64,000 nucleotides of DNA from Candidatus Bathyarchaeota archaeon (GTDB taxonomy: Archaea > Thermoproteota > Bathyarchaeia > 40CM-2-53-6), in NCBI GenBank assembly GCA_005888755.1, contig VBBQ01000027.1, positions 30,868 to 94,867 on the forward strand. The letters run 5' to 3'. The stretch's first letter is position 1. Every line of letters begins with the position of its first letter. The notes under the pieces are model-generated. The model saw only the letters and a list, made by a program, of their open reading frames with translations, was not told the origin of the DNA and did no database searches. Below are positions 1 to 13,652 of this stretch, piece by piece. The translations under genes were made by a program, and so were the position numbers.

Positions 1-1500
1 AGGAAAGAGGTCATCGAATCGATTGCTGACGCCATTCGAAAGACGCCTGGGGTAACGCTCCTCGATGTGGAATCCAACTCTGATCACAACAGGTCCGTGA
101 TAAGCTTCGTCGGCGAGCCGGGGCCCGTGAAGGACGCTGCTCTAGCTGCTAGCCAAAAGGCGATTGAGCTGATCGACCTGAGACATCACAAGGGAGAGCA
201 TCCAAGAATGGGCGCGGTCGATGTTGTTCCTTTCGTGCCGTTGTCCGGCGTAACCATTGACGACTGCGTTTCGCTAGCCCGTTCTTTCGGGCAAGAGTTT
301 GCCGAGAAATTTCACGTGCCTGTTTTCCTCTATGAGGAAGCAGCGACTACCGCAGAAAGACGGAACCTCGCTGACGTCCGTGAAGGAGAGTTTGAAGGCC
401 TCCAAGACAAGATTGGCAAGGACCCGGCGAAGAAGCCGGACTTTGGTCCCGAGAAGATCCATCCCACTGCAGGCGCGACGGCTGTTGGAGCCCGAGAGAT
501 TCTGATAGCCTACAACGTAAACCTTGGGACAAGTGATCTAAACATCGCGAAGAAGATCGCCCACCAACTGCGAGCAAAAGATGGCGGGCTCTCGTTCGTA
601 AAGGCGCTCGGGTTCGAGCTGAAGGAGCGCGGAATAGTTCAGGTGTCGATGAACCTGACGAACTATCGCAAGAGCCAGTTGTTCAAGGCATACGAGCTGG
701 TCAAGCTCTTCGCTGATCGCTACGGCGTCCCAGTCGTAGGGAGCGAGGTGGTGGGGCTCGCACCTATGGATTCCCTCGTCGACTCAGCAGAGTTCTACTT
801 GCGACTGGAGAACTTTAGCCGAGACCAAGTCCTAGAGAGGAAACTCTTCGCTCCTACGCCTTCAACACTGACCGACCAGAGCCTGGCAATGTTCAGCGAG
901 GAAGTCGCGTCCAAAAAGGCCACCCCGGGGGGCGGAAGTGTCTCCGCATACATGGGAGCACTCGCCGCAGGACTTCTCTGCATGGTCGCCCGGATAACGC
1001 TGGGAAAGAAGGATCCCCCGCCCAGTGCAGAAAAACTCAACGAGGTGGTGAAGGAGGGTGAGGCTCTTCGCCAGAAACTTCTACGCCTTGTAGTGGAGGA
1101 CACTGAAGCCTTTGACCTGGTGATGAAAGCGTTCAAGCTCCCGAAGGACCAGCCTGAGACTCGGAAGAAGGCGATAGAAGAAGCAACCATCAAAGCATCT
1201 GAGATACCACTCTCAACACTCAACTGCTCAGTCAAAGTTCTAAGACTGGCTCACGAGGTCGCAGAGAAAGGGTCCACGAATGCATTGTCGGATGTCGTCA
1301 CCGCTGTCTCTTCGGCGCGTGCGGCCGTTGAAGGGGCCGCAAGCAATGTCTTGATCAACCTTGCAAGTCTTAGCGATCAAAAGTACGTGGAGAACATCTC
1401 AAGACAGGTCTCTGATCTTCGAAAGGAAGCTGCTCAGCTTGAGGAACGGGCTGGAAAGCTTGTCGAGTCTAGAATTAGGAATCCTAGGATTCCAGCCTGA
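1..1500 (+). CDS. ftcD: Bifunctional glutamate formimidoyltransferase / formimidotetrahydrofolate cyclodeaminase (5' end cut by window)
   Basis: The protein joins an N-terminal formiminotransferase domain (to about residue 300), which moves the formimino group of N-formiminoglutamate to tetrahydrofolate, to a C-terminal cyclodeaminase domain that releases ammonia and gives 5,10-methenyl-THF. These are late steps of histidine breakdown feeding one-carbon folate. Visible family signatures are DHNRSV near the start, HPRMGAVDVVPFVP, and GGGSVSAYMGALAAGL opening the cyclodeaminase part. A GTG lies at 67, but the frame is open to base 1 and the upstream codons read like the family N-terminus (ending TLLDVESN), so the true start is outside the window. 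The last 17 bases overlap the convergent HxlR gene. No other histidine-utilisation gene is visible. Confidence 0.93.
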   Translation, partial: RKEVIESIADAIRKTPGVTLLDVESNSDHNRSVISFVGEPGPVKDAALAASQKAIELIDLRHHKGEHPRMGAVDVVPFVPLSGVTIDDCVSLARSFGQEFAEKFHVPVFLYEEAATTAERRNLADVREGEFEGLQDKIGKDPAKKPDFGPEKIHPTAGATAVGAREILIAYNVNLGTSDLNIAKKIAHQLRAKDGGLSFVKALGFELKERGIVQVSMNLTNYRKSQLFKAYELVKLFADRYGVPVVGSEVVGLAPMDSLVDSAEFYLRLENFSRDQVLERKLFAPTPSTLTDQSLAMFSEEVASKKATPGGGSVSAYMGALAAGLLCMVARITLGKKDPPPSAEKLNEVVKEGEALRQKLLRLVVEDTEAFDLVMKAFKLPKDQPETRKKAIEEATIKASEIPLSTLNCSVKVLRLAHEVAEKGSTNALSDVVTAVSSARAAVEGAASNVLINLASLSDQKYVENISRQVSDLRKEAAQLEERAGKLVESRIRNPRIPA

Positions 1501-1837
1501 CAAGCCCTCCCATCTTGTCAGCCCAGACCATCAACGGAGCCACAAGGATTGTAAGCTCTCTACCCTCACTCGTTAGATGATACTCGACGCGCGGCGGTAT
1601 CTCGCGGAACGCCTCCCGCTCGATGAGGCCGGTTCGCTGAAGGTCTTTGAGAACCTCGGCGAGTGTCTTGGCGCTTATTCCTTTGAGCCGCCCTTGTAAT
1701 TGATTGAACCTCATGGTTCCATTGTTGCCAAGTTGGGCAAGCAAGCAAAGTGTCCACTTCTTACCTACGATATCGATGAGCCCTTTGCAGGGACAGGGAC
1801 AAACACAGCATGGTTCTCCTTCTACTAGCCTAACCAT
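1484..1837 (-). CDS. HxlR-family transcriptional regulator with Cys-rich N-terminus
   Basis: A 117-residue winged-helix protein of the HxlR/MarR-like group. The run from GLIDIVGKKWTLCLLAQL through RFNQLQGRLKGISAKTLAEVL to the Arg/Glu-rich wing is diagnostic. HxlR proteins bind DNA as dimers and often respond to thiol-reactive or redox signals. Here the N-terminus holds five closely spaced cysteines (residues 10, 11, 13, 15 and 17, as CCVCPCPC), far more than most members, suggesting metal binding or thiol sensing. It is divergent from a Cys-rich micro-ORF across 74-83 bp of DNA with inverted GTTAC half-sites, so it probably controls both itself and that ORF. The function is inferred from family and layout. 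Confidence 0.92.
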   Translation of the reverse strand: MVRLVEGEPCCVCPCPCKGLIDIVGKKWTLCLLAQLGNNGTMRFNQLQGRLKGISAKTLAEVLKDLQRTGLIEREAFREIPPRVEYHLTSEGRELTILVAPLMVWADKMGGLVRLES

Positions 1838-1838
1838 A

Positions 1839-1911
1839 GGGTTACCAAGTTACGTACCAGAAACTTGATTGCTTAAATACTTTGTAATAGTAACTAACGT
1901 TACTTACAGAG
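1839..1911. promoter_or_regulatory. Divergent promoter/operator between HxlR gene and Cys-rich micro-ORF
   Basis: The region holds a perfect inverted repeat AGTAACTAACGTTACT (1889-1904; 6-bp arms, 4-bp spacer). Two further GTTAC half-sites lie near 1840-1855, next to the HxlR start. A TATA-like stretch GCTTAAATACTT lies at 1871-1882 and reads as TATA-like on both strands. The inverted repeat lies about where transcription toward the micro-ORF would start, a natural place for an HxlR repressor. The operator role is inferred. Confidence 0.6.
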
Positions 1912-1920
1912 GTGAAGTAT

Positions 1921-1983
1921 TTGGACGATTGCTGCCCGTGTTGTTGCGGATGTTGCGGGCCAACTGCTAAGGGAACGCCTTAG
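1921..1983 (+). CDS. Cysteine-rich micropeptide (20 residues), candidate metal- or thiol-active peptide
   Basis: A 20-codon ORF starts with TTG at 1921, five bases after a strong Shine-Dalgarno (GAGGTGA, 1909-1915). An in-frame GTG at 1912 would add three residues. The peptide contains CCPCCCGCCG: seven cysteines in ten residues, with Pro and Gly between. A dense Cys block like this is typical of metal-thiolate peptides, but I do not recognise a named family. It is divergent from an HxlR regulator whose own N-terminus has a similar Cys-Pro motif (CCVCPCPC), and the two share an operator-like region. The good ribosome site, the codon-by-codon Cys pattern and the paired layout argue that it is real; its size makes chance possible. 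Confidence 0.55.
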   Translation: MDDCCPCCCGCCGPTAKGTP

Positions 1984-2173
1984 CCAAAGCCCTACAGCTT
2001 ATCGTATTATCGTTCCCTTTTTTCCTCTGAAACTGGCTCTCAAGGGTCGGATACGCCGAGAAAGACCGAACCGTAGCCTCCTTTGAGAGAACGGATTCGG
2101 AAATTCTACTTTCTCTCTGGATAGTAGCGAGTGAAAAACGACCTCGACAAGGTAAGACTCGGCCGATACTCAC

Positions 2174-2635
2174 TTGATGTCTGTTACTCGCCTTCTTCGA
2201 AAATTGAACCTTCGACCACGAACAAGTCCAGGGTCATTTGCATACTGTGATGCTCAGTCGGGTTCACATCTTCTGTTCCGATGGGATGGGTCTGGATTGA
2301 CGAAATCAGATGAGATTGTGCTCTTCGAAGAAGAAGGGCCTGGGTTTCAGCCGCTTCACATTCAAGGTCACCTAACGCGAGTTTTATTCATGATTCGGTC
2401 GGGTGATGTGATCGCAAAACTCGTTTGGGTAGTTCCTGAAGCTCGATGTCGCGATCTTGACAAGATCGTCTTTTCGTGGGTTCGAATGTGGGAAGCCGCG
2501 TTCGGTGGCAGATTTCCTCCGATCGAGTACAGGAGTGAGAACGGCTCATATCTTGGGTCCTTGGGAACGAGCCAGAATGCAAGACACCATTCAGGACCAC
2601 CATTAGCGAAGTCTGTTGACTTCGAAGAGCTATGA
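2174..2635 (+). CDS. Hypothetical protein, 153 aa
   Basis: An unrecognised soluble protein. The start is TTG 2174 or ATG 2177. It has no signal peptide or membrane segment. The middle (residues about 20-100) alternates short hydrophobic strands with charged turns, as in a small alpha/beta domain; the C-terminal 30 residues look disordered. It ends 10 bp before the convergent methyltransferase stop. The 190 bp upstream hold no other gene. Whether it is translated is uncertain. Confidence 0.45.
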   Translation: MMSVTRLLRKLNLRPRTSPGSFAYCDAQSGSHLLFRWDGSGLTKSDEIVLFEEEGPGFQPLHIQGHLTRVLFMIRSGDVIAKLVWVVPEARCRDLDKIVFSWVRMWEAAFGGRFPPIEYRSENGSYLGSLGTSQNARHHSGPPLAKSVDFEEL

Positions 2636-2644
2636 TGGAATAGT

Positions 2645-3400
2645 TTAGGCTTTACGGCCCGAGATGATCATCCAATCTGGAATTTCTAGCCCTTCTCTCA
2701 CAATACGAGTGCGGTGCTTCTTCCAGAACGAACTCTTGACGTGCCAGCTCTCGAAGAGATGTTCTGCCGCGCGGGCTCTTATGATCAGATTGCTCTTGAT
2801 CCTCTTGACCCGGATGTTTCGAAACTCCGCTCGCTCTAGTGTTGACACTACCTGGTCTGGTCTGGGAGAGAACCATTCCTTTGGCGGAGTCTTTGTCCAG
2901 ATCGGGTTGGTGTCAGCTTCTATCAACAATCTCTGGCGAGGGTTTCTGGGAGTGGGCGAGAGAAATGAATGGATCGTTAGGCCACCATGTCTCAGAACGC
3001 GGTAACACTCTGACAGAAACATGGATAGCTCGTAGGAATCGATCTCGGGCAGAAACTCACTCGATATCACCCCTGCGTACTTGTCGGAGAACTCGCCCCA
3101 TAGCCAGTCCAGATAATCCGCTACATGCACCTTGACCCGGCTCTTGAGCATCGCTCTGGATAGAGCCTTGGTCAACTGACTTAGAGTCCCTGCGTACGCG
3201 CCGCTGAATGTGTCCACGACATTGAATTGATGCTGGGGGAGAAGCTTCGCCAGTGGAATGGTCAGCTGGCCTTTTCCGCAACCAATCTCTGCGAGAACCC
3301 CACTCCTGTTGGGAACAAGCTTTGCGATCTCTCTCGCGAGGTCCTCGTATTGCCGAGCGTAGGCACTTTTCACTTCGCTTGGATCTTCAACGATCTCCAC
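2645..3400 (-). CDS. Class I SAM-dependent methyltransferase
   Basis: A 251-residue Rossmann-fold methyltransferase. SAM-binding motif I is AEIGCGKGQLTIPLA (about residues 37-51), followed by an acidic strand NVVDTFSG, a third motif VKVHVADYLDWL, and SEFLPEIDSY / CYRVLRHGGLTIHSFL in the motif IV-V area. The C-terminal part (RAEFRNIRVKRIKSNLIIRARAAEHLFESWHVK) is basic and may bind the substrate, which cannot be named. It is divergent from the AlkA-like glycosylase across about 95 bp. Confidence 0.85.
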   Translation of the reverse strand: MEIVEDPSEVKSAYARQYEDLAREIAKLVPNRSGVLAEIGCGKGQLTIPLAKLLPQHQFNVVDTFSGAYAGTLSQLTKALSRAMLKSRVKVHVADYLDWLWGEFSDKYAGVISSEFLPEIDSYELSMFLSECYRVLRHGGLTIHSFLSPTPRNPRQRLLIEADTNPIWTKTPPKEWFSPRPDQVVSTLERAEFRNIRVKRIKSNLIIRARAAEHLFESWHVKSSFWKKHRTRIVREGLEIPDWMIISGRKA

Positions 3401-13073: not shown

Positions 13074-13604
13074 ATGAAACTCGTCTTCATCTATGGACCC
13101 TCAGCATCAGGCAAGCTGACCGTCGCAACTGAATTGGCAAAGCTGACAGGGTTCAACCTTTTCGACAATCACATATCGATCCAGTTTGTCCGGTCTAATT
13201 TCGAGTTTGGAACAAAGACCTTCTGGCGCCTCACGGGCAAGTATCGACTGGAGATGTTAGAAGAGGCCGCGAAAGAGGGAATTGACGTAATTTTCACGTT
13301 TGTCTATAGTAGAGGCGAGGACGACCGGTTCGTGAAACATGTGGTCAGAATGATCAGATCGCATGGGCAAGTATGTTTTGTACGACTCTACTGCGAGCGG
13401 AAAGAATTGGTAAGGCGTGTGAAGGCGAATCAAAGGAGAAGGATGGGAAAAGTGAGTAGCGAGAAAATCCTGATTGACTTGTTTCGGAGACACTCTCTCA
13501 ACTCAGGAATCCCATTTCATAGTAGTTTAAGTATAGATACTGCAAATCGAAATCCAGGGAATGTTGCAAGATCGATAGCGCGACGTTACAGGCTATCTTC
13601 GTAA
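13074..13604 (+). CDS. Small P-loop kinase-like NTPase
   Basis: A 176-residue protein opening with a Walker A motif GPSASGKLTV (residues 8-17), then FNLFDNHIS and a predicted strand VIFTFVYSRG. It resembles shikimate/gluconate-kinase-type small-molecule kinases: a DNH motif after the P-loop and a basic lid region (VRRVKANQRRRMGKVSSEK). The substrate is unknown. The C-terminus SIDTANRNPGNVARSIARRY is the usual closing helix of this class. Confidence 0.82.
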   Translation: MKLVFIYGPSASGKLTVATELAKLTGFNLFDNHISIQFVRSNFEFGTKTFWRLTGKYRLEMLEEAAKEGIDVIFTFVYSRGEDDRFVKHVVRMIRSHGQVCFVRLYCERKELVRRVKANQRRRMGKVSSEKILIDLFRRHSLNSGIPFHSSLSIDTANRNPGNVARSIARRYRLSS

Positions 13605-13652
13605 CACGGTTACAGCAGGTTTGGGCACAAAATGCCGACAGAGAGAAGCGGG

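Follow-up and report, generated by a model that had tools for sequence, protein, structure and literature searches.

In the SmtB/SmtA divergon of Synechococcus, a zinc repressor and a metallothionein are encoded divergently, with inverted-repeat sites in the 100 bp that separate the two genes (PMC8790569). The archaeal locus described here has the same layout, a regulator and a small Cys-rich protein facing away from each other across inverted repeats. It differs in that the regulator belongs to the HxlR/DUF24 rather than the ArsR/SmtB family, and in that the predicted peptide has 17–35 residues and falls into no known metallothionein family. In length and number of Cys it is similar to the short fungal copper metallothioneins (Neurospora type), which have about 25 residues and seven Cys; the spacing of the Cys and the domain of life differ, and we claim no homology.

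HxlR/DUF24 regulators (HxlR, YodB, HypR and QsrR) have a common fold, a common Pfam family and a Cys that precedes the Trp in the first long helix by 13 residues, and the archaeal regulator shares all three. In relatives with known function this Cys answers electrophiles, oxidants or formaldehyde; when the N-terminal Cys of B. subtilis HxlR is crosslinked, the protein changes shape and the preceding residues flip away (PMC7835342). The archaeal protein has additional Cys at positions 10, 11, 13 and 17, and its partner is a Cys micropeptide, not an enzyme or an oxidoreductase. Polycysteine leader ORFs of mycobacteria are also short and rich in Cys codons (PMC9031893); the micropeptide ORF, in contrast, is led by a Shine-Dalgarno site, has its own T-run and has no conserved downstream gene. 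In the open-licence literature we found no archaeal metallothionein of this type, no metal-sensing HxlR and no earlier description of the pair, which appears to be the most compact form of an archaeal switch for soft metals such as copper, one that is widespread and, it seems, undescribed.

A Cys-rich micropeptide gene divergent from an HxlR regulator

The preliminary description had proposed a 20-codon ORF with a strong ribosome site, encoding the block CCPCCCGCCG, and a divergent HxlR protein with a Cys-rich N-terminus. Both are present in the window, that is, the whole 64 kb stretch of DNA analysed (Table 1). The ORF runs from a TTG at 1921 to a TAG at 1981–1983, with 5 nt between GAGGTGA and the start codon, and seven of its 20 residues, including those of the block, are Cys. 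Among ORFs of 15–40 aa on both strands of the window, it is the sole one with an RBS-like site and at least four Cys; standard gene finders tend to skip a peptide gene of this size. We infer that it is translated.

Table 1. Features of the micropeptide–HxlR locus (window coordinates)
Feature	Position	Strand	Description
HxlR-family regulator	1484..1837	-	117 aa; N-terminal EGEPCCVCPCPC; PF01638 2.3e-24
Dyad A, presumed operator	1841..1853	.	GTTACCAAGTTAC; adjoins HxlR start
TATA box	1873..1880	.	TTAAATAC, conserved core AAATACTT; from alignment of 16 promoters; for the micropeptide, perhaps both directions
Dyad B, presumed operator	1889..1904	.	AGTAACTAACGTTACT; between TATA box and micropeptide RBS
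Shine-Dalgarno site	1909..1915	+	GAGGTGA; GGTGAAG invariant in 16 genomes
Cys-rich micropeptide gene	1921..1983	+	20 aa MDDCCPCCCGCCGPTAKGTP; TTG start; positional homologues in 16/16 family genomes
T-run, probable archaeal terminator	2018..2023	+	3' of micropeptide ORF; from the sequence and relatives
Accessory ORF	2174..2635	+	153 aa from TTG 2174; cassette entry in some relatives; outside core module

The peptide has one hallmark of metallothioneins, a very high Cys content with CC and CxC motifs, and nine family peptides searched up to E 10 gave no Pfam or NCBIfam match, metallothioneins included; nor do the micropeptides match DUF5320 (Pfam). Assignment to a known family through Pfam or NCBIfam was thus abandoned, as was an RNA element at the locus, since Rfam gave no match over 1400–2300.

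The regulator matches the Pfam HxlR family with 85.5 bits against a curated cut-off of 20.8. Its AlphaFold model, of moderate confidence (mean pLDDT 65.5) and with the Cys-rich end not resolved, has the winged-helix fold of HxlR, YodB and HypR, and the best PDB matches are 1z7u, YodB 5hs7, HxlR 7bzd and HypR 4a5n. The Cys-rich end consists of CCVCPCPC at residues 10–17, in which C10, C11, C13, C15 and C17 are invariant in the family alignment. Judged from its spacing to the Trp, C15 corresponds to Cys11 of B. subtilis HxlR and is the conserved Cys ahead of the first long helix that typifies HxlR/DUF24 proteins. The position of Lys13, used by HxlR in its response to formaldehyde (PMC7835342), is taken by Cys17. 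These genomes also encode HxlR paralogues, and no Cys-rich ORF lies divergent to any of them.

The micropeptide is conserved and lost together with the regulator

The window comes from a Bathyarchaeia genome. Fifteen other genomes of its family have an HxlR ortholog with the upstream side intact, giving 16 with our own; all are uncultured and metagenome-assembled, and the named close relatives are soil Candidatus Bathyarchaeota bins. The orthologs are 71–79% identical to the window HxlR. The preliminary description had suggested looking for a short ORF beside such genes, and it is there at every intact ortholog (16/16): a GGTGAAG site followed, in the same place, by an ORF of 17–35 aa with 6–8 Cys. 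A Cys-poor version occurs in none of the 16, and shuffled sequences would yield a Cys-rich ORF 0.1 times summed over the 16 loci. Conservation and shuffles together rule out a chance ORF. In the 17th genome (G015, 93% complete) the peptide is gone, and what is left of HxlR is a stop-bearing remnant of the C-terminal half (L195).

Length, spacing and tail of the peptide vary, and the Cys-Gly-rich block is constant; its Cys codons in the family are TGC (77) and TGT (32). One relative, G004, has CTG near the usual start position and an alternative GTG inside the RBS. Of 50 differences in five close pairs, 31 are at third codon positions (p 3e-5), a bias that protein-based alignment favours and that the gap-free pairs by themselves do not settle. 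A family-wide whole-genome profile search recovered peptides at this locus, displaced copies and one peptide at a contig end in G009, on a contig without HxlR, and none elsewhere. That the micropeptide gene is real and co-regulated with HxlR is well supported.

The joint presence and loss of two partners with similar Cys blocks could also mean that the micropeptide acts on HxlR itself, as a feedback inhibitor that gives metal to or takes it from the N-terminal Cys block, or binds the block. We consider this improbable: the peptide varies freely (17–35 aa) opposite an invariant HxlR block, a pattern that one would not expect of a specific contact between the two proteins.

The neighbourhood bears on two further readings. 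On the HxlR side, which is syntenic in most family genomes, the adjoining gene is FTCD; 3' of the micropeptide the gene varies from genome to genome and frequently lies in the opposite orientation, as does the nearest sizeable ORF in G007, G018 and G019. The Cys codon runs in a short ORF are the hallmark of leader peptides (PMC9031893), and the micropeptide ORF might be a Cys-responsive attenuator for a downstream gene, as are the mycobacterial polycysteine uORFs; G014 does have a same-strand gene closely downstream. Since the family loci have no conserved same-strand gene there, a cis-acting leader is very unlikely and the attenuator reading largely refuted; T-rich runs follow the ORF in most relatives, which also speaks against it. 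We give equally little credence to the idea that the ORF encodes a peptide to be modified or exported (a RiPP or metallophore precursor). Such a product would likewise be short and Cys-rich with a variable tail, but the family's peptides share no leader, and neither a modifying enzyme nor an exporter is conserved beside them.

With FTCD and variable genes as neighbours, the family locus has no metal gene beside it. CopD was dropped as a partner in the family because it is found in only 1 of 21 genomes. All 21 have matches to heavy-metal P-type ATPases, which in our own genome lie on other contigs and are therefore not informative about this locus in particular.

Paired dyads in the divergent promoter

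The start codons of HxlR and the micropeptide are 83 bp apart, compared with about 100 bp in the SmtB/SmtA intergenic region, and the promoter between them is strongly conserved across the 16 genomes aligned. The four half-sites and the 16-bp inverted repeat claimed for it are real. GTTAC stands at 1841–1845, 1849–1853 and 1899–1903 and GTAAC at 1890–1894; the inverted repeat, dyad B, has a 4-bp spacer and 6-bp arms, too short to be listed by a general repeat search with a minimum arm length. GTWAC-N2..5-GTWAC dyads occur in 14 of the 16 family promoters (shuffle expectation 0.1) and are absent from the rest of the wider clade of CxC-type HxlRs described below. There, ACTAT-N4..10-ATAGT lies near the TATA box at 20 of 75 loci (0.3 in shuffles). 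As the motif differs between the family and the rest of the clade, the pairing seems to have outlasted a change of operator.

The perfect form GTAAC-N3-GTTAC has 0–3 sites per genome. About half of the sites in our own genome and 20 relatives lie in this promoter, and we presume from this distribution that the dyads are dedicated operators of the locus. With the other exact dyads scattered, we claim no wider regulon. One of them, at 13601–13613 of the window, looks incidental.

CxC-type HxlRs are often paired with small Cys-rich proteins

More distant HxlR orthologs, from Bathyarchaeia, Nitrososphaerota, methanogens, Archaeoglobus and others, carry CxC instead of the CCxCxCPC block. Together with the family, itself a single branch (98/99), they form one supported archaeal clade (99/95), in a tree built on few columns and with a bootstrap that is not fully settled. 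We counted a locus as paired if it had an RBS-led divergent ORF 35–150 nt away, 15–95 aa long and with at least four Cys in the first 45 residues; partners that qualify may be Cys/His-rich. Pairs were found at 15/16 family loci, 25/69 other CxC-type loci and 1/67 remaining HxlR loci, against 0.1, 0.2 and 0.3 in shuffles. The difference between 25/69 and 1/67 is significant (Fisher p 7e-8) in counts that treat related loci as independent. Several of the CxC-type negatives (L141, L150, L157 and L161) miss solely on the RBS or with a count of three Cys.

The partners are diverse. Larger ones, such as MCCDCGCGSGHHGEGHHHEEGHERGHGRRFLTNAEKVEKLKSYAEELRKELTAVEEHIKELKS, combine a Cys/His block at the N-terminus with a coiled coil at the C-terminus; 9 of 23 of these divergent proteins match DUF5320, and only weakly (best 5e-4). 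Order-mates of the family have a different five-Cys protein, MCKGKCTHPEKLKGTPQDC..., and short forms outside the family appear at two loci, L145 (MCAECGCGCGGQAKKRIKSDKPKK) and L060 of the Caldarchaeales (MPIEKVRAEKEKKEDACWCGCGCCVTSISEKG). Given such short sequences, partners across the clade may be either homologous or repeatedly recruited. At four order-mate loci (L162, L165, L177 and L178) an HxlR with CNCLC stands beside a 41–50 aa five-Cys protein, MCKGKCTHPEKLKGTPQDCSEEQIRECHP..., that has no Pfam match. At L060, CRISPR-like direct repeats (CTTTCAATTCCTTTTTGGATTTCTG, at about 2470–2494, 2537–2561 and 3317–3341) flank the HxlR and micropeptide locus.

Where neighbours in the clade name a substrate, they are soft-metal or thiol genes. 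Divergent neighbours include CopD (L167, 2e-9), an HMA-containing P-type ATPase (L064), a P-type ATPase with an HMA-thioredoxin protein (L210), a YHS-domain protein (L041), and Rdx with an ACR3-like SBF permease and an ArsC-like LMWPc protein (L059 and L066); Thioredoxin_3 and DsbD_TM are also among them, and a cupredoxin is a neighbour in a more distant branch. Many CxC loci have divergent genes of other kinds that point to no metal; ABC-2 transporters, with no substrate named, are frequent among them. In many Bathyarchaeia and methanogens (L043, L047, L141, L144, L146, L214 and others) the Cys-rich ORF is followed by an ABC-2 ATPase and permease, an order that suggests an operon.

The Thioredoxin_3, Rdx and DsbD_TM neighbours would suit a module for thiol stress, in which the HxlR Cys block senses oxidants, quinones, aldehydes or other electrophiles, as YodB, HypR and HxlR do, and the induced micropeptide serves as a sacrificial polythiol. 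The regulator is an HxlR/DUF24 protein whose nearest relatives of solved structure sense redox state or electrophiles, and it has the canonical sensing Cys, C15. We regard this as a serious alternative, if an unlikely one. Clusters of CC and CxC with Gly-Pro spacers fit metal clusters better than simple scavenging; the CopD, HMA and P-type ATPase and ACR3/ArsC-like neighbours count against it as well, as does the replacement by Cys17 of the Lys13 position on which the formaldehyde response of HxlR draws (PMC7835342).

A candidate mechanism for soft-metal response

The reading we favour, and rate somewhat above even, is that HxlR responds to soft metal and represses both its own gene and that of a metallothionein-like micropeptide, in an archaeal analogue of the SmtB/SmtA divergon. 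An HxlR dimer would bind dyads A and B, at the expected start sites flanking the central TATA box, and repress both genes. A soft metal, most likely Cu(I) and possibly As(III) or another thiophilic ion, would bind the Cys cluster before helix 1 (residues 10–17); the metal-bound end would rearrange and the repressor leave the DNA. By bridging residues 10–17, the metal could use the movement seen in crosslinked B. subtilis HxlR. A short mRNA would then be made, and the 20-residue peptide translated from it would sequester the metal. Four observations count against this reading: no metal gene adjoins the family locus, the peptides fall into no Pfam or NCBIfam family, many CxC loci have divergent genes that point to no metal, and in HxlR relatives with known function the same Cys answers electrophiles, oxidants or formaldehyde.

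The preliminary description had imagined a small sensor/effector module. At the level of sequence this idea is supported, and it gains because related CxC HxlRs are often divergent from small Cys/His-rich proteins and lie near copper, arsenic or thiol genes. More tentatively, and with slightly less than even confidence, we suggest that HxlRs with an N-terminal CxC are an undescribed class of soft-metal sensors across Archaea, often encoded head-to-head with a small, rapidly evolving Cys(/His)-rich chelator whose gene annotation can miss. In the Bathyarchaeia family the chelator would have shrunk to a metallothionein of 17–35 residues and the sensor gained a five-Cys cluster.

If the divergon reading is right, archaea have a metallothionein divergon governed by a regulator family of its own, the locus illustrates how little sequence a useful metal-binding gene may need, and a CxC HxlR with a short divergent Cys-rich ORF offers a simple signature for locating missed genes in uncultured archaea. 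Cultured archaea such as Methanolobus vulcani and Methanohalophilus carry the larger version, which makes the proposal testable.

Recombination at the locus and the accessory ORF

Between our own genome and G002 (L008), 1800–2900 is about 94% identical and the flanks mostly 60–90%, which marks a recombination tract in which promoter, micropeptide and following ORF have travelled as a unit. G017 and G004 both have an additional segment between the promoter and the resident micropeptide; it comprises a new micropeptide and an ORF of 150–180 aa, and the resident survives downstream with its own RBS.

This orphan ORF (the accessory ORF of the window; reverse strand in L228; 723–1251 in L229) occurs in 6 of 256 genomes of the class, five times at this locus. 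Its structural model (pLDDT 74) has a weak likeness to restriction-endonuclease-like folds, with Z up to 8.5 for an RPB5-type subunit and 5–6.6 for EcoP15I, XisH, EndoMS and PaqCI. A broken copy adjoins the HxlR remnant of G015 (L195). In G012 a distant relative (L235) adjoins an apparent adenine DNA methylase gene, a neighbour that would fit a nuclease role for the orphan ORF.
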